Origin: Halopseudomonas phragmitis
Lineage (GTDB): Bacteria > Pseudomonadota > Gammaproteobacteria > Pseudomonadales > Pseudomonadaceae
NCBI RefSeq assembly: GCF_002056295.1
Contig: NZ_CP020100.1
Location: forward strand, 380,001 to 444,000
Reading direction: 5' to 3'
DNA length: 64,000 nucleotides
Shown here: in pieces, positions 12,696 through 28,809 of the stretch
Layout of the letters: each line of letters begins with the position of its first letter
Position numbering within the stretch: position 1 is the first letter of the stretch
Translations under genes and position numbers: made by a program
The notes under the pieces: model-generated
Told to the model about the DNA's origin: nothing
Seen by the model: only the letters and a program-made list of their open reading frames with translations
Databases searched by the model: none

Positions 12696-12724
12696 TTGAC
12701 TCTCAAATGATAACGATTATTATT
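12696..12724 (+). promoter_or_regulatory. prrF promoter with overlapping Fur box
   Basis: TTGACT (12696-12701), a 16-base spacer and TATTAT (12718-12723) form the promoter. The 19-mer AATGATAACGATTATTATT (12706-12724) is a good match to the Fur consensus and covers the spacer and the -10 element. Fur-Fe bound here would exclude RNA polymerase, giving expression only under iron limitation. Confidence 0.85.
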
Positions 12725-12729
12725 AACAC

Positions 12730-12908: not shown

Positions 12909-13805
12909 TCACGCAGATGCTTCGGCCGCCTCCAGAGTGTTTTCCAGCAGGCAGGCGATGGTCATCGGCCCTACCCCGCCGGGCACCGGCGTAATCCAGG
13001 ACGCCCTGGCACTGGCTGTCTCAAACTGCACATCACCTGTCAGGCGACCATCAGCCAGACGGGTGATTCCAACATCCAGCACCACCGCTCCAGGCTTGAT
13101 CCAGTCACCGCGAATCAGCCCCGGCACACCCGTGGCCACCACCAGGATATCCGCCTGGCGCACCAGTTGCGGCAAATCGCAGGTTTGCTTGTGCGCTACC
13201 AGCACCGTAGCCTCGGCCTTGAGCAATTCCAGCGCCATAGGCCGGCCAACGATGGTCGACGCACCAACCACCACCGCCAGCTTGCCGCATGGATCGACTC
13301 CGGCGCTGGCCAGCAAGCGCATGCAGCCCTTGGGCGTACAGGGTCGCAAGCCCGGTACTCCGGCGGCCAGCCGACCAAGGTTTTCCGGGTGGAAGCCATC
13401 GACGTCCTTGCCCGGAGCAATCCGACCGATCACCCGGCGCACATCAATATGCGCTGGCAGTGGCAACTGGACCAGAATCCCATGGACTGCCGGGTCAGCG
13501 TTCAACTGCTCGATCAGCATCAGCAGCTCGGTTTCGCTGACGCCGGCCGACAGCCTGTGACTGAGCGAGCGCATCCCGACCTGCTCACAGGCGGCAATCT
13601 TGTGCCGAACATAAACCTGTGAAGCCGGATCCTCACCCACCAGTACCACCGCCAGGCCCGGGACACTGGCGCCAGCCGCGCAGCGTCGGGCCACCCTGGC
13701 GGCGACCTCGCTCCGTACCTGGGTCGCCAGCGTCCGCCCATCAAGCACCTGGCAAGCTGACGGCACCGCCCGCTCGAGCGGCGCCTGATCTACAAAAGCA
13801 CTCAC
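12909..13805 (-). CDS. folD: Bifunctional methylene-THF dehydrogenase/methenyl-THF cyclohydrolase
   Basis: Interconverts 5,10-methylene-THF, methenyl-THF and 10-formyl-THF. The 298-residue protein shows the FolD catalytic Lys region ([17 protein letters not shown]), the [10 protein letters not shown] block, the PCTPKG loop and the Rossmann signature [13 protein letters not shown], ending with [12 protein letters not shown]. The GTG at 13805 is the best start: it follows the mgsC stop after one base (TGA-A-GTG) and so is translationally coupled. An in-frame start at 13877 would overlap mgsC by 71 bases. As the last gene of the gmaS-mgsABC arm it is probably the pathway-dedicated copy, oxidising the one-carbon unit made by MgdABCD. 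Confidence 0.92.
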
Positions 13806-13806
13806 T

Positions 13807-15129
13807 TCAGTAACCCTGCCCCGGAATCCAGCTGGTGCCCGCCAGCGGCACCCTGGCCATGGCGGCCGCCTCGACACTCAGGGCCACCAGATCCTCGGGA
13901 TCGAGGTTGTGCAGGTGCGACTTGCCACAGGCGCGGGCCATGGTCTGAGCCTCCAGCACCAACACCCGCAGGTAGTTGGCCAGCCGCCGGCCACCCTCAA
14001 CCGGGTCCAGGCGTTTGGCCAGTTCCGGGTCCTGGGTGGTGATGCCAGCCGGGTCGCGACCATTCTGCCAATCGTCGTAATAGCCGGCAGCCGAACCCAG
14101 CTTGCGCAACTCGCTGTCCAGGCGCGGATGGTTGTCACCCAGGGCAATCAATGCGGCGGTACCGATCGCCACCGCATCAGCACCCAGCGCCATGGCCTTG
14201 GCCACGTCGGCGCCGGTGCGGATTCCGCCAGAGACAATCAGTTGCACCTGCCGGTGCATGCCCATTTCCTGCAGAGCCTGAACCGCCTGGGGAATGGCGC
14301 AGAGAATCGGGATGCCGACATGCTCGATGAACACTTCCTGAGTAGCCGCCGTTCCCCCTTGCATACCGTCGAGCACAATCACATCGGCACCGGCTTTGAC
14401 CGCCAGCTTGACGTCGTAATATGGGCGGCTGGCGCCGATCTTCACATAGATAGGTTTTTCCCAGTCGGTGATCTCGCGCAGTTCGGCAATCTTGATCGCC
14501 AGATCATCCGGGCCAGTCCAGTCCGGATGCCGACAGGCGCTGCGCTGATCGACGCCAACCGGCAAGGTGCGCATGCCGGCGACCCGCTCAGTCACCTTCA
14601 TGCCTAGCAACATTCCGCCGCCACCAGGCTTGGCGCCCTGGCCCAATACGATTTCAATGGCGTCGGCCTTGCGCAGATCGTCCGGGTTCATGCCGTAACG
14701 CGACGGCAGATACTGATAGACCAGATGCCTGGACTGACCGCGCTCTTCCGGGGTCATGCCGCCGTCCCCGGTGGTGGTACTGGTGCCGGCGATACTCGCA
14801 CCACGACCCAAAGCCTCCTTGGCCTGGGCCGACAACGCACCAAAACTCATACCCGCGATGGTTACCGGGATATCCAGGTGGATCGGCTTTTTGGCGAAGC
14901 GGGTGCCGAGCACCACATCGGTCCCACATTTTTCCCGATAGCCTTCCAGCGGATAACGGGAAATGCTCGCTCCCAGCAACAATAGGTCATCGAAATGCGG
15001 CACCTTTCGCTTGGTCCCACCACCACGAATGTCATAGATGCCGGTCTCGGCGGCTCGCTGTATTTCCTGAATGGTCAGGCGGTCGAAGGTGGCGGACTCG
15101 CGCAGTACCGGCTCATGGGTGTCGTTCAT
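13807..15129 (-). CDS. mgsC: N-methylglutamate synthase subunit C (FMN glutamate-synthase-like)
   Basis: A 440-residue protein homologous to the FMN-binding synthase domain of glutamate synthase (GltB), also annotated GlxD. Recognisable segments are the FMN-barrel strands [30 protein letters not shown], then [36 protein letters not shown]. In N-methylglutamate synthase it transfers the methylamine group of gamma-glutamylmethylamide to 2-oxoglutarate or glutamate carbon, with MgsA (amidotransferase) and MgsB (GXGXG). ATG 15129 sits six bases behind GAGAGGA. The context (gmaS and mgdABCD) is the main reason to prefer this name to a generic glutamate synthase. Confidence 0.82.
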
Positions 15130-15162
15130 ATGCATTCCTCTCAATCAGTCAGACCGAACGGC

Positions 15163-15846
15163 TCAGTAGGCCGCTGCGTTATCCACCTTGAAGCTGTACA
15201 GTTGCCGGGCCGAGCCATAGCGTTTGAAGCTGGCCGGGTCCTCGTCGAAGCCGGCACGGTTAAGCAATTCCGTCAGTTCCTCCAGATGCTCTGCGCGCAT
15301 GGCTTTCTCAATGCAGTCAGAACCCAGCGACTTGACCGAGCCCTTGACGTAAATGCGGGTCTCGTACAGCGAGTCGCCCAACGCATCGCCTGCATCACCG
15401 CAGACCACCAGACGCCCGGCCTGGCCCATAAAACAGCTCATATGGCCAACGCTGCCGCCAACCACGATATCGGCGCCTTTCAGCGAGATCCCGCAGCGTG
15501 CCCCGGCATCGCCGTCAATGATCAGCAAGCCGCCATGGGCCGTGGCTCCGGCCGACTGCGAGGCACTGCCCTTGACGTGCACCAGCCCAGACATCATGTT
15601 TTCAGCCACGCCGACCCCGGCATTGCCATGTATGGTGATCGTGGCTTTCTGGTTCATGCCGGCGCAGTAGTAGCCGCTGTGGCCTTGAATATCGACCGAG
15701 ACCGCCTCGTTCAGGCCAACCGCCAGGTTGTGCTTGCCATCGGGATGGGTCACCAGCCACTCGCGTTCGGTGACAGCGCCGGCCTGCACATGCAGCGCCT
15801 GATTGAGTTCACGCACCGGAGTGCTGGACAGATCAATGGTTTTCAT
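15163..15846 (-). CDS. mgsB: N-methylglutamate synthase subunit B (GXGXG domain)
   Basis: A 227-residue protein made of the GXGXG right-handed beta-helix found at the C terminus of glutamate synthase and in formylmethanofuran dehydrogenase subunit C (also annotated GlxC). The repeat is visible as successive Gly-rich turns (HGNAGVGVAENMMSG, VKGSASQSAGATAHGG, GDAGARCGISLKGAD, GSVGHMSCFMGQAG). It is a structural subunit of the three-part synthase. The ATG at 15846 follows GAGGAG; the preceding in-frame GTG is too close to that site. Confidence 0.82.
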   Translation of the reverse strand: MKTIDLSSTPVRELNQALHVQAGAVTEREWLVTHPDGKHNLAVGLNEAVSVDIQGHSGYYCAGMNQKATITIHGNAGVGVAENMMSGLVHVKGSASQSAGATAHGGLLIIDGDAGARCGISLKGADIVVGGSVGHMSCFMGQAGRLVVCGDAGDALGDSLYETRIYVKGSVKSLGSDCIEKAMRAEHLEELTELLNRAGFDEDPASFKRYGSARQLYSFKVDNAAAY

Positions 15847-15857
15847 CACGTTGCTCC

Positions 15858-16763
15858 TCAGGCGCTCTTGCGTTCCCAGATGTACATGGTGGCGGGCTCC
15901 GGTTCCCAGACCCGGGCCTGATCGATCCCCGGTAGCCCAGCCAAAGCCTGGTATTCCGAGGCCATGGCCACGTAATCCTCGGTTTCGGCCAACACCGCCG
16001 GCTTGCAGGCGATCGGATCACGAATCACCGCAAAACCTTCACGGGTGCCAATGGCGAAAGTGAAGAAGCCATCCAGATCGTTCAGGGCATGATCCAGCGC
16101 CTGTTTGAGCGAGTCGCCTTCACGCAGGCGCCAAGTCAGGTAGGCGGCGGCCACCTCGGTGTCGTTTTCGGTTTCGAACTGCAAGCCACGGCGCTTGAGC
16201 TCCTGACGCAGGCGGCTGTGATTGGACAGCGAACCGTTGTGCACCAGGCACAGGTCATTACCCGTGGAGAACGGGTGGCTGCCTTCCATGGTTACCGCGC
16301 TTTCAGTGGCCATGCGGGTATGGCCGATGATATGGCTGCCTTTCATGGCGCTGAGTGAGAAACGCTCGGCAATCGCCGCCGGCAAGCCCATGCCCTTGAG
16401 AATCTCGATGCTCTGACCGATGCTCATCACCCGCACCTCGGGCGCCAGCTCGGTCAGCGCGGCGCGCGCCTGATGCTCATCGGCATTGAGTTTGAGCACA
16501 ACCGCATCAGCATTGCTGAACCAGTCCAGCGAGCAACCCAGACGCCCTTCCAGCGCGCCCATCAGGCTGCTCCAGTCATAGTCTGCCGTGGTGCTTTGCA
16601 GCGTCAGCTTGATCCAGCCATCGACCACTTCATCGCCGTAGATGGCGAAGCCAGCACTGTCCGGTCCGCGATCGGTCATCGCCAGCAGCATCGGCTCGAA
16701 CAGGGCACCAAGCTGCGATTCCAGTTCAGGGTTCTTCAGATACAACCCGACAATTCCACACAT
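15858..16763 (-). CDS. mgsA: N-methylglutamate synthase subunit A (class II glutamine amidotransferase)
   Basis: A 301-residue class II (Ntn) amidotransferase, also annotated GlxB. Starting at ATG 16763 the protein begins MCGIVGLY, putting the catalytic Cys directly after Met, as required for removal of Met and exposure of the N-terminal nucleophile. Further motifs are TDRGPDSAG, GHTRMATES and HNGSLSNH. The role is to cleave gamma-glutamylmethylamide and hand methylamine to MgsC. Eleven bases separate it from mgsB. The alternative GTG at 16769 would bury the Cys, so it is rejected. Confidence 0.83.
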   Translation of the reverse strand: MCGIVGLYLKNPELESQLGALFEPMLLAMTDRGPDSAGFAIYGDEVVDGWIKLTLQSTTADYDWSSLMGALEGRLGCSLDWFSNADAVVLKLNADEHQARAALTELAPEVRVMSIGQSIEILKGMGLPAAIAERFSLSAMKGSHIIGHTRMATESAVTMEGSHPFSTGNDLCLVHNGSLSNHSRLRQELKRRGLQFETENDTEVAAAYLTWRLREGDSLKQALDHALNDLDGFFTFAIGTREGFAVIRDPIACKPAVLAETEDYVAMASEYQALAGLPGIDQARVWEPEPATMYIWERKSA

Positions 16764-16814
16764 AAACACATCCTCACTACGTTCGGGAGCCTGAGGCCCA
16801 GGCCTCGGGCGGCT

Positions 16815-18149
16815 TCAAAAGAATTCGGTATACCGCTGTACTTCCCAGTCACTGACATGGCGGCTGTATTCCACCCACTCCATGCGCTTGAGCTTGATGA
16901 ACTCATCGACAATTTCCGATCCCAGCACTTCGCGGAACAGCGGATCGGCTTCCAGCGCCAGACAGGCTTCATTGAGATTCTGTGGCAGAGTCTTGATCCC
17001 GCGTGCGGTGATATCCTCCAGACTCAAGTTGTAGAGGTTCTCGTTGCAGGGCTGGCCCGGCTCCAATTGACGGTCGATACCGTCCAGACCGGCGGCGATG
17101 ATCGCGGCGGTGACCAGATAGGGATTGCAGCCAGCATCAGGCAGGCGGAACTCGATCCGGCCATAGGGAATGCGCACCATCGCCGAGCGGTTATTCTCGC
17201 CATAGGCGATAAAAGCTGGCGCCCAGGTCGCCCCTGACAACGAGCGCCCCACCACCAGGCGCTTGTAGGAATTGACCGTCGGCGCGGCAAAGGCACACAA
17301 CGCCGGTCCATGGGCCAACAGCCCGGCGGCGAAGTGATAGGCCATCTTCGATAACCCCATACCAGAGGGGTCTGCCGGGTCGTGGAACAGGTTGGAGCAG
17401 TCCTTGCTGGCCAGCGAAATATGAAAGTGCATGCCGTTGCCCGAGCGGCGCGGGTCCGGCTTGGGCATGAACGAGCAGATCATGCCCAGTTCATTGGCAA
17501 TCTCGCCGGCAGCCATGCGAAAGAAGGTGAAGCGATCGGCCGAGGTCATGGCGTCGCTGTAGGTATAGTTGATCTCGAACTGGCCGTTGGCATCCTCATG
17601 ATCGATCTGGTAGATGTCGAAATCGACCTGCTGCAGCGCTTCGGTCAGGCGCTCGAGAAACTCCCGAGAACGTGACAAGCCCTTGTAGTCGTAGCAGGGC
17701 TTATCCAGAGTGTCGCTGGCATCAACCAGTTGCAACTGTCCTCGTTCATCACGGCGGAACAGGCTGAACTCCGGCTCCAGGCCGGTATTCATGGTCCAGC
17801 CCCGGTCTGTCAGTCGTTCGATCTGGCGCTGCAACACATAGCGGGTGTCATAGGGGTGCGGCTGGCCGTTGACATGACCGATACACAGCAGCCGGCCGTA
17901 GCCCGGCTGCCAAGGCACCGGGGTCAGAGTCGACAGATCGCCCCTGGCCATGAAGTCCGGCCCATGAGGCTCCATGCCCATGCCACAAATGGCGAAGCCG
18001 GCAAACCCGGCACCTTCCTCGGCTACAGCCTGGAGGCCACTGACCGGTACCGACTTGGTTTTGGCAGCACCATGAATATCGACAAACTGCGCCAGCACGT
18101 ACTTGATACCGTACTGTTCAATGATTTGCTGTGTCTCGCTGGGCAACAT
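16815..18149 (-). CDS. gmaS: Gamma-glutamylmethylamide synthetase (type III glutamine-synthetase family)
   Basis: A 444-residue glutamine-synthetase-like ligase (GlnT/GlnA-III group). Predicted reaction: glutamate + methylamine + ATP to gamma-glutamylmethylamide. Visible GS features are the beta-Grasp N-domain ([17 protein letters not shown]), GLEPEFSLF with a metal Glu, [22 protein letters not shown], and the Arg-rich active-site block ([20 protein letters not shown]). Length and the absence of an adenylylation-type Tyr loop separate it from housekeeping GlnA. Head position in a gmaS-mgsABC-folD unit opposite a mgdABCD operon makes the methylamide function likely. A pure glutamine synthetase role cannot be excluded from sequence alone. 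AAGGAG precedes the ATG. Confidence 0.82.
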
Positions 18150-18181
18150 GGGATAGCTCCTTTCGGCAAATTATTCCACAC

Positions 18182-18203
18182 AGGAATTTTAATTTCACCA
18201 TAA
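18182..18203. promoter_or_regulatory. Candidate operator of the XRE/cupin regulator, gmaS side
   Basis: The 235-base gmaS/regulator intergenic region contains AGGAATTTTAATTTC (18182-18196), a near-dyad around GAATTTTAATT, followed without gap by TCACCATAA (overlapping from 18195). A 13/15 version of the first block and an exact copy of TCACCATAA recur in front of purU (21681-21715). Shared motifs upstream of both arms suggest one regulator, most simply the adjacent XRE/cupin protein. This is inference from pattern only. Confidence 0.4.
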
Positions 18204-18384
18204 GAAATGCAATCCGCTTGCCAAGTCCTCCAGATGCGAGAAAAGCCTGTCAAAATGCCGCGTAATGGGTATATCTATGGAAAAATGCCCCTGCCCCGGA
18301 TGCGCTGGTTGTTGTCATGACGATGCGTTTGCGCACATTCTTGGTGCTAAATTTAATTTACCGATCTGAAAGCGTGCATACTCA

Positions 18385-18984
18385 ATGGCCAAATCAAGCG
18401 ACACCCAACCACGCCTCAAGCTGGAGCAATATCTGGGCATGCAGATTCGCCGTCAACGTCAGGCCCAAGGGCTGAAGATCACCGACGTGGCGCGCATTGC
18501 CGGCATCAGTCAGGGCATGCTGAGCAAAATAGAAAACGCCCAGGTGTCTACCAGTCTGGATACCCTGACACGCCTGTGCGATGTGCTGGGCCTGCCAATG
18601 TCGAAACTGTTCAGTCAGTATGATCAGCAAGGTGGAGGCGCATTGCTGGTCCACAGTGGTGAGGGGCTGGAAGTGGTGCGCCGCGGCACCGAGAAAGGCC
18701 ACACCTATCAGTTGCTCAACCACACCCGTGGGCCGAAAAAGAGCTTCGAGGCCTACATGATCAGCATGGATGATGCTGCCGAAGAGTTTCCAACCTTCTC
18801 CCACCCCGGCACTGAGTTCATTCACCTGCTCGAAGGCCGGCTGGTTTATCGGCATGGCAACCAGCTTTACCCCATGGGTCCTGGTGACAGCCTGACCTTC
18901 GACGCCGAAGTGCCCCACGGCCCGGAAACCCTGGTTGAGGTGCCCATCCGCCTGCTGTCGGTAATGAATTACGACCAGAACTGA
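18385..18984 (+). CDS. XRE-family regulator with C-terminal cupin
   Basis: A 199-residue transcription factor: an N-terminal HTH of the Cro/C1 type (about residues 17-72: RRQRQAQGLKITDVARIAG, ISQGMLSKIENAQVSTSLDTL) and a C-terminal cupin_2 barrel (about 125-190: FPTFSHPGTEFIHLLEGRL, then MGPGDSLTFDAEVPHGPE). The His and Glu metal or ligand positions of a cupin are visible. It is divergent from gmaS, and this class of regulator commonly controls the neighbouring catabolic operon in response to a small metabolite. The likely ligand is methylamine-derived (gamma-glutamylmethylamide or N-methylglutamate), which is inference. Confidence 0.88.
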   Translation: MAKSSDTQPRLKLEQYLGMQIRRQRQAQGLKITDVARIAGISQGMLSKIENAQVSTSLDTLTRLCDVLGLPMSKLFSQYDQQGGGALLVHSGEGLEVVRRGTEKGHTYQLLNHTRGPKKSFEAYMISMDDAAEEFPTFSHPGTEFIHLLEGRLVYRHGNQLYPMGPGDSLTFDAEVPHGPETLVEVPIRLLSVMNYDQN

Positions 18985-19195
18985 GCACTCGGCGGCCGCA
19001 GCCTGCTGCGGCCGACATCCCGCCCCCAATATGCGCTGATCCCCACCCCTGCGGCCTGCTGCCAATTCTGCCATTGGCACAGCCCTTGCTTTTGCCCCTG
19101 ATAACCAGATTACAAAAACATCAGCATCCCGCTTGCCGGTCTGCCACCGGCTGATCAGCCAGGAGGCGGCACTTGCCGCCCGAACAGGTGCCGTT

Positions 19196-19864
19196 ATGCT
19201 CAGTCCGATTTTTCAGCTCTACACCCCTTCATCGCTAGGCCTCAAGGCCAGCGCGTTTACCGTTCATGGCCTGCGCAACCACAGTTGGACGCCAATCCTG
19301 CTGGCTCGCCTGCACGAATTGCGTCAGAGCGTCGACGTCCAGGCCAGCATGCGCTGGGTCGATAGTTTCAACCGCCTGCGCCAACGCCAGGGCCGCTCAG
19401 CCAAACGCTTTCCTGCCTCACCCTGCGCACTGCTGGATCAACTGTTGCGTCTGGGCGAATTGCGCCGCATCTCACCGGTGGTCGATCTGTACAACCACTG
19501 GTCGCTGAGTACCGGTCTGTCGATCGGGGCTCATGATCTACGTCATATCGCCCTGCCGGTTCGGTTGGATATCAGCCGGGGGCACGAACACTTTCACCCG
19601 CTGGGGGCCGAACAGAACATGACGCTAGCCGAAGGCGAATACGCCTATTTCGACGCCAATCAGCAGGTGATCTGCCGGATGGACTATCGCCAGTGCGCGG
19701 TCAGCGCCCTGCAGGCCGAAAGCCAGGAAGCCCTGTTCATCGTCCAGGGCCATCCGGATACCAGTACCGCCGAGCTGCAACAGTGCGTGCACGGCCTGAA
19801 AGCCGATCTGACCCGGCTGTGCAGCAACCTCAACCCCACCCAGACTGCCTGTTCACAGGATTAA
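19196..19864 (+). CDS. B3/B4 tRNA-synthetase-beta-domain protein
   Basis: A 222-residue soluble protein with the B3/B4 domain of phenylalanyl-tRNA synthetase beta chains (hallmarks PVVDLYNHWSLSTGLSIGAHDL and LAEGEYAYFDANQQVICRMDYRQ). Stand-alone B3/B4 proteins are thought to act on or bind amino-acid-like ligands or mischarged tRNAs; the exact role here is unknown. ATG 19196 has AGGTG upstream; a TTG at 19133 would add 21 poor residues. The following chemoreceptor-like gene starts nine bases after the stop, so the pair is likely co-transcribed. Confidence 0.75.
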   Translation: MLSPIFQLYTPSSLGLKASAFTVHGLRNHSWTPILLARLHELRQSVDVQASMRWVDSFNRLRQRQGRSAKRFPASPCALLDQLLRLGELRRISPVVDLYNHWSLSTGLSIGAHDLRHIALPVRLDISRGHEHFHPLGAEQNMTLAEGEYAYFDANQQVICRMDYRQCAVSALQAESQEALFIVQGHPDTSTAELQQCVHGLKADLTRLCSNLNPTQTACSQD

Positions 19865-19873
19865 GGAGTCATC

Positions 19874-21667
19874 ATGCGCTGGCTGAAACCGGACTCACCG
19901 CACCACCTGCCACTGCACGACTGGCAACAGTCCCTGCTCGCGGGCGACTGGGAGCGAGCCCTGGTGCTTGAGTCCGGGCGCATGCCGACCGCGCTGCGCG
20001 AACAACTGCAGCGGCTGCCGGCGGTCGACAACCAGCCTGGCATGCACGCCCTGCTCGAGCGTCTTGAGGCGCTCAACCGGCATACCCTGCAGGCGATCGA
20101 TCAGGTCGAGGGCAGCCTGGCCGAGATTTCCGCACGCAGTGGCGAGCAACTGACATTCCTGAATCAGACCCGTGGCTTTCTTGGTGACAGCAGTCACAGC
20201 GCCGAGCAGCTGCGTACCGAAATGGATCTGGAACTGCAGGCTACCCAAGGCTTTTTCAGCCAGCAGTTCGCCGAACTGGTCGAGGCCATTGAGGCGCGCA
20301 GCCAGGGTTCACACGGAGTCATCGACGCCATCGACAATATTGGTCGCACGGTACAGTTGCTATCGATCAATGCCGCCATCGAAGCCGCTCACGCCGGTGA
20401 GTCCGGTCGGGGCTTCGCCGTGGTCGCCCAGGAAATCCGTGAACTGGCACTGCGCACCCAGGACAATGTCCAGAAAGCCTATGAACAGATCGACCTCAGC
20501 CCACTGGCCGGACAACTGGAAGAGATGCTTAAAACGGCCGAAACCCAACTGGCCATGCTCGGTCAGCGCGTCAGCGAATCGCTGCAAACCCTGCACGGCC
20601 TGCTCGACCGCATGGCCGAACATCTGGGCCAGATCGAAACCAACAACCGGGTAATCGCCGCAGGCGTGACCATTGGCGAGGCCGGCGATCAGCATCTGCG
20701 CAGCCGGACCAACTGGAGCCTGGACCTGCTGCACGATCTGCAGGATATCCAGCGCAGCGATGGCGCGCAGAACATGCAGCGCCTGCTCAACGAGGAAAAG
20801 CTGCAACTGCAGCACGACTACGACCGTCTGGCCGACATCCGCCAGCGCGGCGAAGTACGCATCGCCATCGAGCCACATTTCAAAGGGCTGTCATTTCGCA
20901 CCGCCCCCGGTGCCGCTCTGGTCGGTCTGGACGCCGACCTGGCCCGCGCCTTCGCTAACTGGCTGGGGGTCAAGTGCCAGTTCGTCGAATACCCCTGGGA
21001 CCGCTGCCTGCAGTTGCTTGAGGCCGGCCCCCAGCGCCGCGAACGCGAGGCCGACCTGGTCTGGAGCGCTTTGCCACCAATGCCCGAATACCAGCAGGTA
21101 GCCTTTTCCAATCCCTATGTGTTCCTGCCCTATATCCTCGCCAAGCGGGCCGGTGACATACGGATACGCGGGATTGATGACCTGCAGGACAAGGTACTGG
21201 GGTGTATCAACGACCCAGCCGCGCTCGAAACCCTGGCCGCGCGCGGATTACGCTGGCAAGCCAACCGGCAACAAGCCGGTGGCCGCATTGCGCTGGCCAA
21301 TCTGCTGGCCTACAACGACCAGAGCCAGATTCATGACTGCCTGGCCGATGGCGTGGTCGATGCCTTTGCCGTCGACCTGCCGATTTATCACTGGGCCTGT
21401 CACGGCCCGGACAGCCCCTGGCGCGGCAAGCTGGAAATCCTGCCGGGCAATCTCAGCCCCCAATTGTGGTTCTACAGCGCGGCTGTGGCCAACCAGCCTG
21501 GCAGTACCAGCCTGCTCAAAGCCATCAACCAGTTCATTGACGAGTTCCGACCCAGCGCCAGCTACCGTGAATTGATCACTCGTTGGCTGGGTCATGGGTA
21601 CGACGATCCCAACTGGCACTTCAGCCCCGGCGTTCAGAGCCTGAGCACCCTGGAAGACAGTCTGTAG
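19874..21667 (+). CDS. Soluble chemoreceptor signalling domain fused to a type 3 periplasmic-binding fold
   Basis: A 597-residue protein with no signal peptide and no transmembrane segment. Residues about 55-290 are a coiled-coil methyl-accepting signalling domain whose hairpin tip is clear ([34 protein letters not shown], read in two parts, about 155-195). Residues about 320-570 are a solute-binding-protein family 3 fold ([66 protein letters not shown]). The sensor domain is C-terminal and apparently cytoplasmic, the reverse of normal chemoreceptors. No HAMP domain or CheR-tethering pentapeptide is visible. It lies inside the methylamine module, so its ligand may be a pathway intermediate; that is inference. 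Confidence 0.8.
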
Positions 21668-21680
21668 GCTGGCCAATACC

Positions 21681-21715
21681 TCACCATAAAAATTCCTCTC
21701 AGGATTTTTATTTTC
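21681..21715. promoter_or_regulatory. Candidate operator upstream of purU-mgdABCD
   Basis: TCACCATAA (21681-21689) and AGGATTTTTATTTTC (21701-21715) repeat the two blocks found upstream of gmaS, in swapped order. They lie at the head of a 197-base AT-rich intergenic region before purU. No other gene start in the window shows both blocks. Confidence 0.4.
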
Positions 21716-21864
21716 CTAACAGTATTGACTGAAAAACCGCGCTTCGCTTATAAAAAACACATAGTGAATATTTTATTCCTGGCAGTTAAATTTCTTCACA
21801 AGTGAATTGAATGTTTACCCATGAAGACGCCAGGCAGGTTTCAAATACTGAGAGGGGGCTTGCC

Positions 21865-22731
21865 ATGCCCAGCGCGTCACAGCACTACACCATCAAGATC
21901 AGTTGCCCGGCCACCTCCGGCATCGTCGCCGCGGTTACCAGCTACTTGGCCGGCCAGGGTTGCTACATCAGTGAAATGTCGCAGTTCGACGACGAGTTCC
22001 AGGACATGTTTTTCATGCGCGCGGTGTTTCGCTTCAACACCGGAGTGAATGCCGATCTCGCCAACCTGCGTGCAGGCTTCGATGATGTCGCCCAGCGTTT
22101 CGACATGCGCTGGGAACTGTTCGACAACAGCCGGCCGATGCCGGTCTTGCTGATGGTCAGCAAGTACGACCACTGCCTGACCGACCTGTTGTACCGCCAC
22201 CACAAGGGCGAGCTGGACATGCGGATCACCGCGATCGTCTCCAACCACCTTGATCTGCGGCCAATGGCCGAGCGCGAAGGCATCCGCTTCATCTATTTGC
22301 CGGTGAACAAGGACAACAAGGCCCAGCAGGAAGCCGAGTTGCTGAAGATCGTCGAGGAAACCGGCACCGAACTGGTGGTGCTGGCCCGCTACATGCAGAT
22401 TCTCTCTGATGAGTTGTGCGACAAGCTGGCCGGCCGGGCGATCAACATCCATCACTCGTTCCTGCCCGGTTTCAAGGGCGCCAAACCCTATCACCAGGCC
22501 TGGGAGCGCGGCGTCAAGCTGATTGGCGCCACTGCCCACTATGTCACCGCCGACCTCGACGAAGGCCCGATCATCGAACAGCAGGTCCAGCGGGTCGATC
22601 ACACCTATCTGCCCGAAGATCTGGTTGCCATCGGCCGCGATACCGAAACCGTGGCCCTGTCCAAGGCGGTCAAGTACCACCTCGAACACCGGGTGTTTCT
22701 CAACAATGAGCGCACAGTGATTTTTCGTTAA
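21865..22731 (+). CDS. purU: Formyltetrahydrofolate deformylase
   Basis: Hydrolyses 10-formyl-THF to formate and free THF. The 288-residue protein has an N-terminal ACT domain (KISCPATSGIVAAVTSYLA) and the C-terminal formyltransferase-like hydrolase domain, with RYMQILSD and the catalytic block INIHHSFLPGFKGAKPYHQA (Asn, His) and a later Asp (TADLDEGPI). ATG 21865 follows GAGAGGGGG; an upstream ATG at 21811 lacks a ribosome site. As the first gene before mgdABCD it closes the route C1-THF to formate and recycles THF, as purU2 does in pseudomonad sarcosine operons. Confidence 0.93.
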   Translation: MPSASQHYTIKISCPATSGIVAAVTSYLAGQGCYISEMSQFDDEFQDMFFMRAVFRFNTGVNADLANLRAGFDDVAQRFDMRWELFDNSRPMPVLLMVSKYDHCLTDLLYRHHKGELDMRITAIVSNHLDLRPMAEREGIRFIYLPVNKDNKAQQEAELLKIVEETGTELVVLARYMQILSDELCDKLAGRAINIHHSFLPGFKGAKPYHQAWERGVKLIGATAHYVTADLDEGPIIEQQVQRVDHTYLPEDLVAIGRDTETVALSKAVKYHLEHRVFLNNERTVIFR

Positions 22732-22748
22732 ACACGCACGGACTAAAT

Positions 22749-22859
22749 AGCTCGGTTGGTGCTGAGCTGTTCTGGACCGTTAGATGCCAGGGATGGCATC
22801 TACGAGCGTACAGGGATGTATTTACAGCGTGTCCAGAACAGCTCAGCACCAACCGGGCT
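22749..22859. repeat. Long intergenic inverted repeat with structured loop
   Basis: Two 29-base arms (22749-22777 and 22831-22859) are inverted copies with a single mismatch (AGCTCGG versus AGCCCGG when aligned); the common core is GGTTGGTGCTGAGCTGTTCT. The 53-base loop has its own small hairpin (GATGCCA-GGGA-TGGCATC, 22783-22800). It fills most of the gap between purU and mgdA and has no T run. The loop text resembles dispersed intergenic palindromes that I recall from pseudomonad and Marinobacter genomes, so it is likely a repeat-family element that also folds in the transcript. No second copy occurs in this window. Confidence 0.8.
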
Positions 22860-22897
22860 GACATCGAAATTACCCGGCAGCATGCCCAGGAGGCCCC

Positions 22898-24139
22898 ATG
22901 CCGTTCAGTCTGTTGAAATACGGCCTGTCGTCCGACTACCCGGTCGAGGTCGATTTGCCCGCACCAACCGAGCTCAAGCCGAGCTATGACGTGGTGATCA
23001 TCGGCGGCGGAGGCCACGGTCTGGCAATCGCCTACTACCTGGCCAAATACCACGGCATCACCAATGTCGCGGTGCTGGAAAAATCCTACCTGGGTAGCGG
23101 CAACACTGCGCGCAACACAGCGGTGATCCGTTCCAACTACCTGACCAGCGAGGGCGTGCGGTTCTATACCGAGTCGGTGCGCCTGTTCAAGGAACTGTCG
23201 AACGAATTTGACTTCAACATCATGTACTCAGAGCGCGGCCAATTGACTCTGGCGCACACCGACGCCACGGTGCGCGCCTTTCGCCAACGCGCCGAAGTCA
23301 ACAAGCACTTCGGTGGCCGCACCGAGATGATCGACCGCCAGCAGATCCGCGAACTGGTGCCGAGCCTGAACCTGGACCCCGGGCATCTACCGGTACTGGC
23401 CGGGCTCTGGCATATCGACGGCGCCACTGCCCGCCACGATGCGGTGGCCTGGGGCTACGCCAAGCAGGCGGCCAAACGCGGCGTGGAAATTCATCAGTTG
23501 ACCGAAGCCCAGGACTTTGTGCTCGACGGCGACCGGGTCAGCGCCATCAAGACCAACCGTGGCACCGTGCGCTGCGGCTGCGTGGTGCAGGCCATTGCCG
23601 GGCACAGCTCGCTGCTGCTGAACAAGCTGGGCATCCGCGCACCGATTCACAGCTACCCGCTACAAGCCATGGTCACCCAACCATTCAAGCCCTTCCTTGA
23701 CCCCTTGGTCAGCTCTTCGGCCCTGCACTGCTACGTCCAGCAGACCAGCCGCGGCGAGGTGGTGTTTGGTGGTGGCTCGGATCCCTACCCGCTGTACAAC
23801 ACACGCTCGACCCTGGAACTGAAAGAAAGCCTGCTGGCCCATGCCATCGAGATGTTCCCGTTTCTGGCCCAGGCCAAGCTGATGCGCCAGTGGGCCGGCA
23901 TCACCGACATGACCCCGGACTACAGCCCGATCATGGGCCTGTCGCCGCTGGACAACTACTACCTGGACGCCGGCTGGGGTACCTGGGGCTTCAAGGCCAC
24001 CCCGATCTGCGGCAAGACCATGGCCGAACTGGTAGCCAGCGGCGGACAGGTACCGGAGCTGATCCAGCCCTTTGCCCTGGAGCGTTTCTCACGCTTCGAG
24101 CAGGTCAACGAAATGGGCGCCACCGCCGCCAGCCATTGA
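22898..24139 (+). CDS. mgdA: N-methylglutamate dehydrogenase subunit A (sarcosine oxidase beta-like)
   Basis: A 413-residue flavoprotein of the D-amino-acid-oxidase superfamily, the oxidising subunit of a heterotetrameric N-methyl amino acid dehydrogenase. An N-terminal FAD site is clear (YDVVIIGGGGHGLAIAYYLA, about 29-48). Further segments are YLGSGNTARNTAVIRSNY (covalent flavin His region in this family), GGGSDPYPLYNTRS and the C-terminal GWGTWGFKATPICGK. It is close to SoxB of sarcosine oxidase. I prefer MgdA because the complete gmaS-mgsABC set lies next door. AGGAGG lies seven bases before the ATG. Confidence 0.85.
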   Translation: MPFSLLKYGLSSDYPVEVDLPAPTELKPSYDVVIIGGGGHGLAIAYYLAKYHGITNVAVLEKSYLGSGNTARNTAVIRSNYLTSEGVRFYTESVRLFKELSNEFDFNIMYSERGQLTLAHTDATVRAFRQRAEVNKHFGGRTEMIDRQQIRELVPSLNLDPGHLPVLAGLWHIDGATARHDAVAWGYAKQAAKRGVEIHQLTEAQDFVLDGDRVSAIKTNRGTVRCGCVVQAIAGHSSLLLNKLGIRAPIHSYPLQAMVTQPFKPFLDPLVSSSALHCYVQQTSRGEVVFGGGSDPYPLYNTRSTLELKESLLAHAIEMFPFLAQAKLMRQWAGITDMTPDYSPIMGLSPLDNYYLDAGWGTWGFKATPICGKTMAELVASGGQVPELIQPFALERFSRFEQVNEMGATAASH

Positions 24140-24149
24140 GGATGCAATC

Positions 24150-24461
24150 ATGAAAATCATGCCCTGCCCGCTCAACGGGCCGCGCAACATCAGCGAATTC
24201 ACCTATGGCGGCGAATTCAAACTCATGCCCGACCCCAACACCTGCTCGGATGCCGAATGGGCCGACTATGTGTTCAACAGCAACAACCTCGCCGGAGTAG
24301 TCACCGAGTGGTGGATGCACACGGCCAGCAGCTACTGGTTTCTGGCCGAGCGTCACACCGTTACTGACCAGATTATTCGTACCTACGACCCCAGCGAGCG
24401 CTTCAGCCAACGGGTCGAATTCAACCTGCCGGCCAGCCGTGAAGAGGAAGTCAGCGCATGA
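24150..24461 (+). CDS. mgdB: N-methylglutamate dehydrogenase subunit B (sarcosine oxidase delta-like)
   Basis: A 103-residue small subunit of the SoxD/delta family. It begins MKIMPCPLNGPRNISEFTYGG and contains EWADYVFNSNN and the EWWMHTASSYWFLAERHT block. In SoxD the equivalent Cys and His residues bind zinc; here Cys7 and the later His residues are present. The next gene overlaps its stop by ATGA. The ATG follows GAGGATG. Confidence 0.87.
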   Translation: MKIMPCPLNGPRNISEFTYGGEFKLMPDPNTCSDAEWADYVFNSNNLAGVVTEWWMHTASSYWFLAERHTVTDQIIRTYDPSERFSQRVEFNLPASREEEVSA

Positions 24462-27364
24462 ACAGCCCTGAGCGCCTGCCCGCCCCGATGGGCCTGCTGA
24501 TCGATCGCAGCAAGCCTATGCCGTTTCGTTTTGATGGCCGCGACTACCAGGGTCTGGCCGGTGACAGCATCGCCAGCGCACTGCTCGCCAACGGCCAGTG
24601 GCTGCTGTCACGCTCGTTCAAGTACCACCGCCCCCGCGGGCCGCTGACCCTGGCTGGCGAAGATGCCAATACACTGGTGCAACTGGCCCAGCAACCCAAT
24701 GCGCTGGCCGACCGCCAGAGTCTTAGCGAAGGCCTGGAGGTCTGGGCCCAGAACGTCAGCGGCTCACTGACGCGTGACCGCGACGCCTACCTGGGCAAAT
24801 TCTCACGCTTCATGCCGGTCGGCTTCTATTACCGCAGTTTCTACAAGCCCAAGGGCGTGTGGAAATACTGGGAGCCCTTGATCCGCAAGAAAGCCGGGCT
24901 CGGTGTGCTGGATCTCGACGCCCGTGGCGGTTATCACGACAAGGCCTTTGTGTTTACCGACGTCGCGGTGATTGGCGCAGGCCCTGCCGGCTTGCAGGCA
25001 GCCCTGAGTGCCGCCGACGCCGGCGCCCAGGTATTGCTGGTCGAGCAGCAAGCCTACCTGGGCGGAGCTCTGGCCTGGAGCCGCTTCGCTGCCGACGCTG
25101 GCGCGGCGGATCGGCTGCGGCGCAACCTGATCGACAGGGTCGAGCAGCACCCCAATATCCGGGTCATGACCGACGCGACCTGCAACGCCTGGTTCAGCGA
25201 CAACTTCCTGCCGGTGATCCAGCGGCAACGGCTGTACAAGGTCCGGGCCAAACAGTGCATTCTCGCCAGCGGCGCTTTTGATCAGCCGGTGGTGTTTCAC
25301 AACAACGACCTGCCCGGCATCCTGCTGACCAGCGCCGTCCAGCGGCTGATGAAGCTCTATGCAGTCAAACCCGGGAAACGGGCCGTGGTATTGACCGGCA
25401 ATGATCACGGCTACCTGGCCGCCCTCGACCTGCATCAGCAAGGCGTTGAGGTCGCCGCACTGGTTGATCTGCGTGCACAGCCGCACGACCCGCTGCTGTT
25501 GACCCAGGTGCAAACCTGCGGCATTGCCTGCCACCTGGGCAGTACCGTGTACGCGGCCCGCACCGGGCGCAGCGGCCTGCACCTGGGCGGCGTCGAAATC
25601 CGCCGGATCAGCGGGCGGGGTAAGGTCCAGAACGGTGGTACAGAACTGGACTGTGACCTGCTATGCATGTCCTCAGGCTACATGCCGGTCTATCAACTGG
25701 CCTGTCAGGCCGGCGCCAGGCTCAGCTACGATGACGCCAGTGCCAGCTTCCGTCTCAGCGGGCTGCCGGACAACCTGCTGCTGGCCGGCTCGGTCAACGG
25801 CTGGCAGCAACTCGACAACGTGCTTGCCGACGCCCGCCGCGCCGCGCACCAGGCGCTGCACGGCCTGGCCCTGGAGCCGCAGGATCAGGCGGGCATGCTG
25901 CAGCCGGAACCCAGCGCTAATGCCGACTGGCCGCTGTTCGCCCACCCCAAGGGCAAGGAGTTCGTCGACTTCGACGAAGACCTGCAGATCGCCGATATCG
26001 TCAACGCCACCCGTCACGGCTACCGCGACGTGCAACTGGTCAAACGTTTCTCCACCGTAGGGATGGGACCCTCTCAGGGGCGCCACTCGGCCCTGCCGAC
26101 CGCCCGCCTGGTCGCTGCCGCAACCCAGCGCACGGTCAGCGAAACCGGTGTGACCACCGCCCGCCCGCCGTTCGTCGCGGAAAGCCTGGCGCATATCGCC
26201 GGACGCGGCTTCGACCCGTATCGCCAGACGCCGATGCATCAGCGCCACCTGCAGGCCGGAGCACAACTGATGCCGGCCGGCAACTGGCAGCGACCGGCCT
26301 ATTACGGCCCGGCTGATCAACGTGATGCCTGTATCCAGGCCGAAGCCCTGAACGTGCGCAACAACGTTGGGCTGATCGATGTGTCGACTCTTGGCGGGCT
26401 GGATCTGCGCGGTCCGGATGCGGCCGAATTACTCAACCGGCTGTATACCTTCGCCTTCGTCAAACAGCCGATAGGTCGCTCGCGCTACGCGCTGATGACC
26501 AACGAACAGGGCGTGGTGATCGACGATGGTGTCTGCGCCCGGTTTGCCGAACAGCACTTCTACGTCACCGCCACCACCAGCGGTGTCGAGCGCATCTACC
26601 AACAGATGCTCAAGTGGAACGCCCAGTGGCGGCTGAACGTCGATATCACCAACCTGACCACCGCACTGGCCGCAGTCAATCTGGCCGGACCACTGGCGCG
26701 TCAGGTACTGGCCAAGCTGTGTACTGACGTTGATCTGTCCGCCGAAGGCTTTCCCTATCTGGGCGTGCGTACCGGTACTGTAGCCGGGGTACCGGCGCGT
26801 CTGCTGCGGGTCGGTTTTGTCGGTGAACTGGGTTATGAAATCCATGTTCCGGCGCGCTATGGCGAGTACCTGTGGGATGCCTTGATGCAGGCCGGGGCCG
26901 AGTTTGGCATCCGGGCGTTCGGGGTCGAGGCCCAGCGCCTGCTGCGCCTGGAAAAAGGCCATGTGATCATCGGCCAGGACACCGATGGCATGACCCGTAT
27001 CGACGAGATCGACATGACCTGGGCGATTGCCCGCAAGAAGCCGTTCTTCGTCGGCAAACGCTCAGTGGAAATTCTCGAAGCCCAGCCGCTCAAGCGCAAA
27101 CTGGTTGGATTCCGCCTGCCGGCAGACTCACCCAGACCGCTGGAAGGTCATCTGGTATTAAACGGCGCACAGATCAGCGGCAACATCACGTCCTGTGAGT
27201 ACTCGCCCACGCTGAACGCAATCATCGGCATGGCCTATGCCGGTGCCGATCAGGGCAGCCCTGGCCAACACCTGCCGATCCGTGTCGAAGGCGGCCAGAT
27301 GGTCCATGCCGAGGTAGTCGAGCTGCCGTTCTACGATCCCGAAACCCGTCGCCAGGAGCTGTGA
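24458..27364 (+). CDS. mgdC: N-methylglutamate dehydrogenase subunit C (sarcosine oxidase alpha-like)
   Basis: A 968-residue multidomain subunit that passes the methylene group to tetrahydrofolate. Residues about 15-95 are a ferredoxin-like Fer2_4 domain (RFDGRDYQGLAGDSIASAL) without visible cluster Cys set. About 165-480 is an NAD/FAD-binding domain (VIGAGPAGLQAALSAADAG). About 530-590 is a SoxA_A3-like linker. About 600-968 are GCV-T aminomethyltransferase folds that bind folate (NNVGLIDVSTLGGLDLRG, GYEIHVPARYGEYLWDAL, RLEKGHVIIGQDTDG). The order equals SoxA of sarcosine oxidase. Tetrahydrofolate coupling explains folD and purU nearby. Confidence 0.88.
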   Translation: MNSPERLPAPMGLLIDRSKPMPFRFDGRDYQGLAGDSIASALLANGQWLLSRSFKYHRPRGPLTLAGEDANTLVQLAQQPNALADRQSLSEGLEVWAQNVSGSLTRDRDAYLGKFSRFMPVGFYYRSFYKPKGVWKYWEPLIRKKAGLGVLDLDARGGYHDKAFVFTDVAVIGAGPAGLQAALSAADAGAQVLLVEQQAYLGGALAWSRFAADAGAADRLRRNLIDRVEQHPNIRVMTDATCNAWFSDNFLPVIQRQRLYKVRAKQCILASGAFDQPVVFHNNDLPGILLTSAVQRLMKLYAVKPGKRAVVLTGNDHGYLAALDLHQQGVEVAALVDLRAQPHDPLLLTQVQTCGIACHLGSTVYAARTGRSGLHLGGVEIRRISGRGKVQNGGTELDCDLLCMSSGYMPVYQLACQAGARLSYDDASASFRLSGLPDNLLLAGSVNGWQQLDNVLADARRAAHQALHGLALEPQDQAGMLQPEPSANADWPLFAHPKGKEFVDFDEDLQIADIVNATRHGYRDVQLVKRFSTVGMGPSQGRHSALPTARLVAAATQRTVSETGVTTARPPFVAESLAHIAGRGFDPYRQTPMHQRHLQAGAQLMPAGNWQRPAYYGPADQRDACIQAEALNVRNNVGLIDVSTLGGLDLRGPDAAELLNRLYTFAFVKQPIGRSRYALMTNEQGVVIDDGVCARFAEQHFYVTATTSGVERIYQQMLKWNAQWRLNVDITNLTTALAAVNLAGPLARQVLAKLCTDVDLSAEGFPYLGVRTGTVAGVPARLLRVGFVGELGYEIHVPARYGEYLWDALMQAGAEFGIRAFGVEAQRLLRLEKGHVIIGQDTDGMTRIDEIDMTWAIARKKPFFVGKRSVEILEAQPLKRKLVGFRLPADSPRPLEGHLVLNGAQISGNITSCEYSPTLNAIIGMAYAGADQGSPGQHLPIRVEGGQMVHAEVVELPFYDPETRRQEL

Positions 27365-27366
27365 TC

Positions 27367-28038
27367 ATGATCAGTCCCACCCAATACCCCACCCGCAGCC
27401 CGCTGTATCACTTGCAGGCCAATGCCCAACTGAGCAGGCTGGGCGATAGCCTGACGGTCGCCCGCTACAGCAGCGGTGAAACAGAAGCAGCCAGGCGCTG
27501 CGCGCTGGTCGATCTGTGCAATCTGGCCCGGGTCGGCTTTCGGGGCGCAGGCAGCGCCCACTACCTTCAGGCCCAGGGTTTCGAGCTACCCCCGGCCCCC
27601 AACCTGGCCCTGCGCCAGACCGACGGTAGTCTGGTGGCGCGTCTGTCGCGCACCGAGTACTTGCTGTTGGGCAGTCTGGGCGACCAGGGTCAACGCCTGC
27701 AGCGCCTGGAAAATGGCTGGCAGCAGGACGCCACGGCCAACTACCTGCTGCCCCGTATCGACAGCCATGCCTGGCTGAGGCTGTGCGGGCAGCATTGTGC
27801 CGAGGTCATGGCCAAGCTCTGTGCGGTCGACCTGCGCCCTCAGAGCTTCCCGCCACTGGCGGTAGCGCAGACCTCGGCGGCGAGGATCAATGTCATCGTG
27901 ATCAACGCCGGCACGCCGCTCCAGCCTTGCCTTGAGTTGCTGTGCGACCGCGCCGCTGCCGAATACTTCTGGGGCGCGCTGCTGGATGCCATGGGCGAGT
28001 TCGACGGTTGCGCCGTGGGGATAGAAGCCCTGATTTGA
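27367..28038 (+). CDS. mgdD: N-methylglutamate dehydrogenase subunit D (sarcosine oxidase gamma-like)
   Basis: A 223-residue SoxG/gamma-family subunit. It has a degenerate GCV-T-like fold (CALVDLCNLARVGFRGAGS, LPRIDSHAWLRLCG, MAKLCAVDLRPQSFPPLAVAQTS). ATG 27367 is preferred because AGGAG of the upstream coding end lies eight bases before it; an in-frame GTG at 27361 is the alternative. It is the last structural gene of the tetramer operon purU-mgdABCD. Confidence 0.85.
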   Translation: MISPTQYPTRSPLYHLQANAQLSRLGDSLTVARYSSGETEAARRCALVDLCNLARVGFRGAGSAHYLQAQGFELPPAPNLALRQTDGSLVARLSRTEYLLLGSLGDQGQRLQRLENGWQQDATANYLLPRIDSHAWLRLCGQHCAEVMAKLCAVDLRPQSFPPLAVAQTSAARINVIVINAGTPLQPCLELLCDRAAAEYFWGALLDAMGEFDGCAVGIEALI

Positions 28039-28047
28039 GCTGCCGAG

Positions 28048-28809
28048 ATGATGGAGAAAAACGACTATCGGGTACCTTCGTTGCAGCGCGGACTTGAGAT
28101 TCTGCAACTGTTCCATGCCGGGCAACGCAGTCTGAGCATGAACGCGATGGCCGAAGCGCTGGAGGTTAGCGTGTCGGCGCTGTACCGCATCGTCCAGACC
28201 CTTAGCGACATGGGCTATCTGCACAAGATCGGCACCAACAGCTACGAACTGGGGCCGGCGGTGGTCAGTGACGGTTTCCGCTACCTGGCCAGTCGCGATA
28301 TCGTCGAGGTGGCCATGCCCCACCTCAACCACCTGCGTGATCGCACCTCGCTGTCCTGCCACCTGAGCATCCGCGAACAGACCGACAGCCTGTACCTGTA
28401 TCGGGCGTTTGCCGGCCAACGCCTGTCGGTCAACATTCCGATCGGCAGTCGCATCGCCTGTCACCGCAGCGCCATGGGCCGGGTCCTGCTGTGTGATTTG
28501 ACCGATAGCGAACTGGAACAGCTCTACCGCTACTGTCGCCTGGACGACCATCCGCCACCCGGCCCGCGCAGCCTGCCGGAGCTGCGGCATCAGGTAGAGA
28601 GCGATCGAGAACGCGGCTGGGTACTGAGCCGCTCCGATTATTCAACGGCAATCGCCTGCGCGATCCGTGACCACCGCCAGCGAATCATTGCCGCAATCAA
28701 CCTGTCGGGGCCCGAAGCCTTGCTGGAGGACGAGCAGACCCAGGCCAGCTACCGCCAGGAACTGCTGGCCGTGGCCGCACGGATTTCCCGCCAGATGGGT
28801 GCGGTTTAA
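28048..28809 (+). CDS. IclR-family transcriptional regulator
   Basis: A 253-residue regulator with an N-terminal winged HTH (about 10-70: RGLEILQLFHAGQRSLSMNA, ALEVSVSALYRIVQTLSDMG) and the C-terminal IclR effector domain (AFAGQRLSVNIPIGSRIACHRSAMGRVLL, WVLSRSDYSTAIACAIRD). It begins nine bases after mgdD and is probably co-transcribed, giving the module a second regulator besides the XRE/cupin protein. The stop overlaps the convergent ttgC stop by four bases. Confidence 0.9.
   Translation: MMEKNDYRVPSLQRGLEILQLFHAGQRSLSMNAMAEALEVSVSALYRIVQTLSDMGYLHKIGTNSYELGPAVVSDGFRYLASRDIVEVAMPHLNHLRDRTSLSCHLSIREQTDSLYLYRAFAGQRLSVNIPIGSRIACHRSAMGRVLLCDLTDSELEQLYRYCRLDDHPPPGPRSLPELRHQVESDRERGWVLSRSDYSTAIACAIRDHRQRIIAAINLSGPEALLEDEQTQASYRQELLAVAARISRQMGAV

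Follow-up and report, generated by a model that had tools for sequence, protein, structure and literature searches.

The N-methylglutamate (NMG) pathway of methylamine utilization is almost certainly encoded at positions 12909-28809 of the DNA stretch analysed here, 64,000 nucleotides from the single 4,035,153-base contig of the Halopseudomonas phragmitis genome (this whole stretch is referred to below as the window). The best explanation of the locus as a whole is, very probably, a nitrogen-controlled NMG module with a second unit behind its own sigma-54-type promoter, which contains genes for a protein with a B3/4 domain and for a predicted soluble chemoreceptor. A preliminary description of the window had named a complete gene set in two divergent arms, gmaS, mgsABC, mgdABCD, folD, purU and the genes of an XRE/cupin and an IclR regulator, and all of these were confirmed as open reading frames with family matches. 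Two genes of the interval were absent from that description, the B3/4 gene and a gene fusing the signalling domain of a methyl-accepting chemotaxis protein (MCP) with the solute-binding domain SBP_bac_3. The arms diverge from the intergenic region 18150-18384, with gmaS read leftward (minus strand) and the XRE-cupin gene, xreC, read rightward (plus strand). The minus arm is gmaS-mgsABC-folD; the plus arm comprises xreC, the B3/4 gene, the receptor gene, purU, mgdABCD and iclR.

The gmaS gene (16815..18149, minus strand), encoding a predicted gamma-glutamylmethylamide synthetase, scores 678.7 bits with TIGR03105 (cut-off 469.6). The closest solved protein is the glutamate--methylamine ligase of PDB entry 9QUR (667.6 bits, versus 325.8 bits for the Rhodovulum GmaS 7CQL). 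In a tree of 73 rows, the GmaS clade (support 96/92) contains 34 rows, namely 30 mgs-linked GmaS proteins, 9QUR and three unlinked copies, and the other glutamine-synthetase-type proteins of the genome fall outside it, several of those rows being long-branched. Four mgs-linked GmaS from genomes outside the class group with 7CQL instead, and thus there are at least two kinds of GmaS in the NMG pathway. The catalytic residues do not discriminate, as Asp177, Glu186 and Arg312 of RhGmaS are conserved both in GmaS and in its paralogue. The latter is 46% identical to GmaS and is encoded outside the window (G000:C1:592903-594231; loci L002 and L180); its gene, the second one of the type III glutamine-synthetase-like kind, lies beside the gene for a putative urea-type ATP-binding cassette (ABC) transporter substrate-binding protein. 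Since the paralogue also passes TIGR03105 (577.8 bits), this model alone is not decisive and can mislead the annotation of gmaS.

Downstream of gmaS, on the same strand, are mgsA (15858..16769), encoding a class II amidotransferase-type subunit with the Pfam domains GATase_6/GATase_7, and mgsB (15163..15849), encoding the GXGXG-domain subunit; both are identified by domain and synteny. They are followed by mgsC (13807..15144, likely ATG start near 15135), whose product is a predicted subunit of N-methylglutamate synthase dependent on flavin mononucleotide (Pfam Glu_synthase, 310 bits). Copies of mgsC 93-95% identical to it are found near gmaS in other Pseudomonadaceae genomes. The locus is found widely: among 390 Pseudomonadales genomes sampled, one gmaS adjoins mgsABC in all 23 that have GmaS. 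Extra, more distant gmaS copies stand alone in the fetched stretch in genomes G089, G274 and G402 and lie near the main locus in G367.

The dehydrogenase genes are all on the plus strand: mgdA (22898..24139; SoxB-like, TIGR01373 456 bits, under the cut-off of 529; synteny), mgdB (24150..24461; SoxD-like, Pfam SoxD 103 bits), mgdC (24458..27364; SoxA-like, TIGR01372 873 bits, under the cut-off of 1164; tree) and mgdD (27361..28038; SoxG-like, Pfam GCV_T 38.9 bits and SoxG 26.5 bits). Given the generic library names and the shared SoxA/B/D/G-type domains, one could take the genes of the locus for those of a housekeeping glutamine synthetase, a glutamate-synthase-like protein and a sarcosine oxidase. 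Moreover, a search of the genome at E <= 1e-20 yielded no second SoxA, and the Mgd set could then be its sole sarcosine oxidase. However, MgdA, MgdB, MgdC and MgdD all score under the cut-offs of the corresponding NCBIfam models (SoxB, SoxD, SoxA and SoxG), and gmaS and mgsABC accompany these genes in other genomes. In the MgdC tree, 25 of the 26 rows in the clade of the window protein are labelled as NMG-linked, and a branch with support 100/100 divides this clade from the SoxA of PDB 2GAG and the unlinked Pseudomonadaceae copies. The link is assumed for L193 and L195 (draft contigs without gmaS), and for L197 and L202 gmaS is about 20 kb away. Two rows stand opposite to their label, the NMG-linked L170 from another class on the SoxA side and the unlinked L210 on the Mgd side. 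The two cysteine pairs of SoxD (CPxCG and a later GC) are missing from the MgdB of the window and from 22 of 23 NMG-linked MgdB rows, again with the exception of L170, whereas all nine unlinked SoxD rows retain them (L168 is visible in this comparison only from the second cysteine position on). Together with the GmaS tree, these data make the housekeeping and sarcosine oxidase explanation extremely improbable. The proposal of the preliminary description that the co-occurrence of these genes points to a route from methylamine to N-methylglutamate thus withstood the GmaS and MgdC trees that were built as a check on it. A divergent type of mgdABC was observed at loci L115-L119 and L133; its mgdC is 43-47% identical to that of the window and is linked to gmaS-mgsABC in several Pseudomonadales, and mgdD was not detected by tblastn in these loci.

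The core of the locus is a further case of a known pathway, since the same enzymes and the use of methylamine nitrogen are reported for Pseudomonas sp. C5pp. According to the account of this strain in a review (PMC8292978, on Kamini et al. 2018), C5pp has gmaS-mgsABC-amt and purU-folD-mgdABCD, uses methylamine as the sole nitrogen source by the indirect route, and shows higher expression with methylamine. Like the window, it thus represents a pseudomonad with gmaS-mgsABC, mgdABCD, purU and folD. The arrangement differs: the C5pp genes form two operons 37.7 kb apart with amt in the gmaS operon, whereas in the window both divergent arms share a single locus, folD comes after mgsC, and no amt was recognized among the cluster genes. 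The B3/4 and receptor genes are additional in the window, the description of C5pp in the review mentioning neither. Such clusters had been regarded as less expected in Pseudomonas-type genomes. This is only partly right, given C5pp as described in the review, and GmaS of the NMG type in 23 of 390 Pseudomonadales genomes, four of them in this family. In relatives from the genus of the window, genes for DUF3360 proteins were noted between the receptor gene and purU at L057 (14560-16023) and L058 (15346-16827), the former locus also having TM_HPP; these may be transporters in place of amt.

Several lines of evidence concern nitrogen control of the module. A sigma-54-type promoter, TGGCAAGCGGATTGCA, was found upstream of gmaS (18208..18223, minus strand). 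It has one mismatch to TGGCACRNNNNTTGCW, which we take to be the sigma-54 consensus, sites being accepted with at most one mismatch; the NtrC-box consensus was likewise assumed. A candidate NtrC-like box, GCAC-N7-GTGC (GCACATTCTTGGTGC, 18333..18347, no strand assigned), lies between gmaS and xreC. The intergenic region was aligned for eight loci of Pseudomonadaceae: those of the window and its near twin G018, three others from the genus and three from the wider family. The alignment contains two conserved blocks, the sigma-54-type site and the NtrC-like box, each present in all eight loci. Within 400 bases of gmaS, a sigma-54-type site occurs in 19 of 34 NMG loci (0.3% of mononucleotide-shuffled regions), and an NtrC-like box is found near gmaS in nine of 34 (1.0% of shuffled regions). 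Sites upstream of the other genes are rare: mgsA 0/34, xreC 1/32, purU 3/24, mgdA 1/26 and the receptor gene 0/5.

A second sigma-54-type promoter, TGGCACAGCCCTTGCT, which matches the consensus perfectly, lies upstream of the B3/4 gene (19075..19090, plus strand), and a site without mismatches precedes this gene in all six genomes carrying it. In the 64 kb of the window, the pattern TGGCA-N6-TTGCW has just two perfect matches, and these are TGGCAAGCGGATTGCA and TGGCACAGCCCTTGCT. It is highly likely that gmaS is under nitrogen control of the NtrC/sigma-54 type; since the promoter and the box before gmaS are conserved, nitrogen limitation should switch the gene on. The earlier suggestion that the module could supply nitrogen gains support from the same two elements. 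In Ruegeria, the gmaS-mgs and mgd operons are controlled by TmaR, an activator of the AraC family, as stated in the part of PMC13390433 that deals with this regulator; in the window the regulators are of the XRE-cupin and IclR types, along with the apparent sigma-54/NtrC promoter. An AT-rich palindrome, TAAATTTAATTTA (18348-18360), present once in the window, was considered as a possible operator for the XRE-cupin regulator and rejected, as only the window and its near twin retain it among the eight loci compared. Generic scans for sigma-70 promoters and terminators gave nothing above chance.

The second unit of the module includes the gene for a chemoreceptor-type protein of 597 residues (19874..21667, plus strand), which starts nine bases after the B3/4 gene. 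In the protein, an MCP signalling hairpin precedes a type-3 solute-binding domain at the C-terminus (Pfam MCPsignal, 74 bits, and SBP_bac_3), and the structure model has a predicted local distance difference test score (pLDDT) of 82.3. The hairpin is conserved: G178, G180, F181, V183, V184, A185 and E187 are invariant in an alignment of 23 sequences. The alignment has 67 invariant columns, of which the hairpin accounts for 20 and the sensor region (319-573) for 47. The 19-residue hydropathy maximum is 1.09 in the window protein and at most 1.4 in 22 of the 23 sequences (1.68 in L173). As hydropathy shows no membrane span, sensing would take place inside the cell. Cytoplasmic chemoreceptors as a class have an MCP hairpin and no membrane span. 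The window receptor resembles them in both respects and differs by its C-terminal type-3 solute-binding sensor; a search of the open-licence literature found no paper on a cytoplasmic chemoreceptor of this architecture. The nearest named relative found is from Pseudomonas sp. WN033, with 98% identity across the fusion protein. A sigma-28 consensus before the receptor gene was looked for and rejected, the best sites having at least three mismatches.

There is good genomic evidence that this receptor is associated with GmaS. Relatives of the receptor were sought at E <= 1e-40 in three samples, which overlap and yield 18 distinct carriers, the Fisher p-values ignoring phylogeny. Among the 390 Pseudomonadales genomes, the receptor occurs in 12, all of them among the 23 with GmaS (E <= 1e-150; p 6e-17). 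In a sample of 398 Pseudomonadota, all seven carriers are among the 50 genomes with a GmaS-type match (E <= 1e-80; p 3e-7); three had already appeared in the Pseudomonadales sample, and in the other four gmaS adjoins mgsABC. In the order of genome G650, the receptor is found in four of 93 genomes, all among the 16 with a GmaS-type match (p 6e-4). Of these carriers, G650 and G754 were already known and G854 and G871 are new. Two genera of this sample are split: three genomes of one have both genes and another three lack both, and in the other genus both are present in one genome and absent from five. In the genus of the window, the receptor and B3/4 genes occur in the same six of 37 genomes, five of which have NMG-type gmaS.

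The physical arrangement varies. In G871, which belongs to another class, some 100 bases separate the receptor gene from gmaS on a 13.9-kb contig that also holds xreC, folD, purU and mgdABC, mgsABC not being on the contig. In G227 the distance to gmaS is about 19 kb. Outside the genus of the window, receptor genes of Pseudomonadales are solitary and have no common neighbour family (L173-L176, from another class, are outside this comparison). At loci L110-L112 of family f37, the unlinked receptor gene is preceded by an NtrC-like box and by a sigma-54-type site that departs from the consensus at one position at most. Tandem pairs of receptor genes were observed in G754 (L175, 7786-11562) and likewise in G854 (L253). 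No relatives of the receptor were found on plasmids (E <= 1e-50). A Lachnospiraceae contig (L056) was rejected as a source of receptor relatives, as the pattern match covers only the MCP part.

The B3/4 gene (19172..19864, plus strand; Pfam B3_4, 64.1 bits) has an open frame from 19133, and its start may be the TTG at 19172, which follows AGGAGG, or an ATG further in. The product is a standalone B3/4 domain with the PVVDLYN motif retained. Its AlphaFold model has a pLDDT of 40 and was not used. The closest solved relatives are PDB 9MKL (43.3 bits) and 9F7E, the canavanyl-tRNA(Arg) deacylase CtdA (42.4 bits). Strong matches were found only in six genomes of the genus among the 80 searched, and weak ones in four more, which lack GmaS. 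Relatives on plasmids, mostly from Pantoea, are distant (53/53 under 60% identity). As described in the section of PMC10018355 on this deacylase, ctdA stands in front of the canavanine-use operon in Pseudomonas canavaninivorans and Rhizobium leguminosarum, and CtdA protects the proteome, canavanine being incorporated into proteins when it is lost. The window protein is similar to CtdA in being standalone, in having the PVVDLYN core and in the position of its gene ahead of catabolic genes, and differs in its pathway and in having about 25% identity to CtdA-like proteins. By analogy with CtdA, and because gamma-glutamylmethylamide is a glutamine analogue, the B3/4 protein may act on gamma-glutamylmethylamide-tRNA; that it edits tRNA mischarged by a pathway intermediate is possible, if still doubtful.

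It could also be a true CtdA, present at this locus by chance and protecting against canavanine, as 9F7E and 9MKL are its nearest solved relatives and the PVVDLYN motif is common to both sides. This seems improbable: it is only 24-26% identical to CtdA-like proteins of three other Pseudomonadaceae genomes, and it adjoins the receptor gene in an NMG-type locus in all six genomes. Another explanation is that the NMG cluster is an ordinary one, in which the B3/4 and receptor genes are passengers with unrelated jobs that entered the locus in a single clade. Strong B3/4 matches are indeed confined to one genus, and other genes of unclear role are also found between the receptor gene and purU (DUF3360 in G029 and G025, TM_HPP in G029). 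However, the order xreC-B3/4-receptor is kept in six of six genomes although the downstream genes differ (the contig of G028 ends there), all six have the perfect sigma-54 consensus, the receptor follows GmaS without exception in the three samples while being mostly unlinked, and in a different class it stands beside gmaS. The passenger explanation is therefore rather unlikely.

A number of observations weigh against the interpretation of the locus as a nitrogen-controlled module with a dedicated receptor. No good sigma-54 site was found at gmaS in 15 of 34 NMG loci, including all seven outside Pseudomonadales, and across the whole window the sigma-54 and NtrC patterns are no commoner than expected by chance, so that the claim of nitrogen control rests on position and conservation. 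Outside the genus, only three of 17 receptor genes have an upstream sigma-54-type site with at most one mismatch (8 of 2200 in shuffled sequences). No B3/4 match at E <= 1e-6 was found in the 26 NMG genomes searched there, and hence the protein is not a general need of the NMG pathway. Many genomes with GmaS have no receptor (11/23, 43/50 and 12/16 in the three samples), and in most carriers its gene is unlinked to the NMG locus. One genome, G028, has the receptor without an NMG-type gmaS match, being a draft with a receptor contig of 4.2 kb and with MgdC present. The co-occurrence counts are not corrected for phylogeny, and the samples overlap. Finally, the arginine position for the amino-acid carboxylate is not kept in the sensor domain of the 23 aligned receptor sequences.

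The last point bears on the ligand. In amino-acid-binding type-3 solute-binding proteins, an arginine binds the alpha-carboxylate and an aspartate binds the amino group. The best PDB fold matches of the receptor model include arginine-, ornithine- and glutamine-binding proteins. As the carboxylate arginine is missing, an amino-acid intermediate is not favoured; the sensor aspartate D501 is invariant in the 23 sequences, so that a small amine without a carboxylate is the likelier ligand, methylamine being the simplest candidate. The amine-sensing dCache_1AM receptors, as far as the relevant part of PMC10104139 describes them, derive from amino-acid sensors, and methylamine caused thermal shifts in one archaeal domain. 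Those receptors are transmembrane and mostly have an extracellular sensor, whereas the window receptor is predicted to be soluble with a C-terminal solute-binding domain.

The balance tilts slightly towards the receptor being tied to the sensing of methylated amines. The narrower claim that this cytoplasmic chemoreceptor of methylamine users detects, inside the cell, methylamine or a compound of the NMG pathway is about evenly poised. Alternatively, the receptor may sense another compound of the same lifestyle, such as di- or trimethylamine, or general nitrogen status, and its link to GmaS would then be ecological. The unlinked receptor genes of most carriers are consistent with this, and a sensor that lacks the carboxylate arginine and has the amino-group aspartate suits small amines generally. 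In contrast, physical linkage of the receptor gene to the NMG locus is seen twice, in different classes. An ecological link thus has a lesser but real likelihood.

The remaining genes of the interval agree with the preliminary description, apart from a correction to the placement of folD. The folD gene (12909..13814, minus strand, open frame to 13877), encoding methylene-tetrahydrofolate (methylene-THF) dehydrogenase/cyclohydrolase (NF008058, 422.6 bits, cut-off 355; Pfam THF_DHG_CYH and its _C domain), belongs to the mgs arm. It overlaps the end of mgsC and likely starts at about 13814. The purU gene (21811..22731, plus strand) encodes formyl-THF deformylase (TIGR00655, 320.5 bits, cut-off 286). 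The XRE-family regulator with a cupin domain (18385..18984, plus strand; Pfam HTH_3 and Cupin_2) is PuuR-like and has relatives in most of the NMG loci fetched; relatives of the IclR-family regulator (28048..28809, plus strand; Pfam IclR_C and HTH_IclR) occur in seven of the other loci compared. Next to the cluster, at 28806-33364, are a gene for a NodT-family outer membrane efflux protein and an open frame of 1047 residues, perhaps a resistance-nodulation-division (RND) pump. Rfam matches within the window are CrcZ and PrrF, the latter an iron-responsive small RNA at 12696-12875, just past the 3' end of folD; the two RNAs identify the host as a pseudomonad. The window contains no guanidine riboswitch at the gathering threshold, a further difference from the CtdA system.

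From homology and the known pathway, GmaS would combine methylamine and glutamate into gamma-glutamylmethylamide, and MgsABC would convert the latter with 2-oxoglutarate to N-methylglutamate. MgdABCD would oxidize N-methylglutamate, yielding glutamate and passing the methyl group on as methylene-THF. FolD and PurU would release this one-carbon unit as formate, and ammonium would be the gain. Under nitrogen limitation, the sigma-54-type promoter and the NtrC-like box would turn gmaS on. In this lineage, the second sigma-54-type unit would provide the CtdA-like B3/4 protein and the predicted soluble chemoreceptor with a solute-binding sensor. The receptor would sense a compound of the methylamine pathway, and the B3/4 protein would clear tRNA mischarged with gamma-glutamylmethylamide. 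That both parts hold together, a dedicated cytoplasmic receptor reading a methylamine or NMG compound, so that cells steer by their own nitrogen metabolism, and a B3/4 deacylase removing N5-methylglutamine from mischarged tRNA, is a long shot drawn from sequence comparison.

As far as a limited search of the open-licence literature goes, the elements of nitrogen control had not been described before, nor, most notably, had the receptor. In at least two classes of Pseudomonadota, the NMG pathway appears to have in this receptor a partner that had escaped recognition. This offers a handle on which signal connects methylamine use to motility and on whether tRNA charging must be protected in cells whose metabolism passes through a glutamine analogue.

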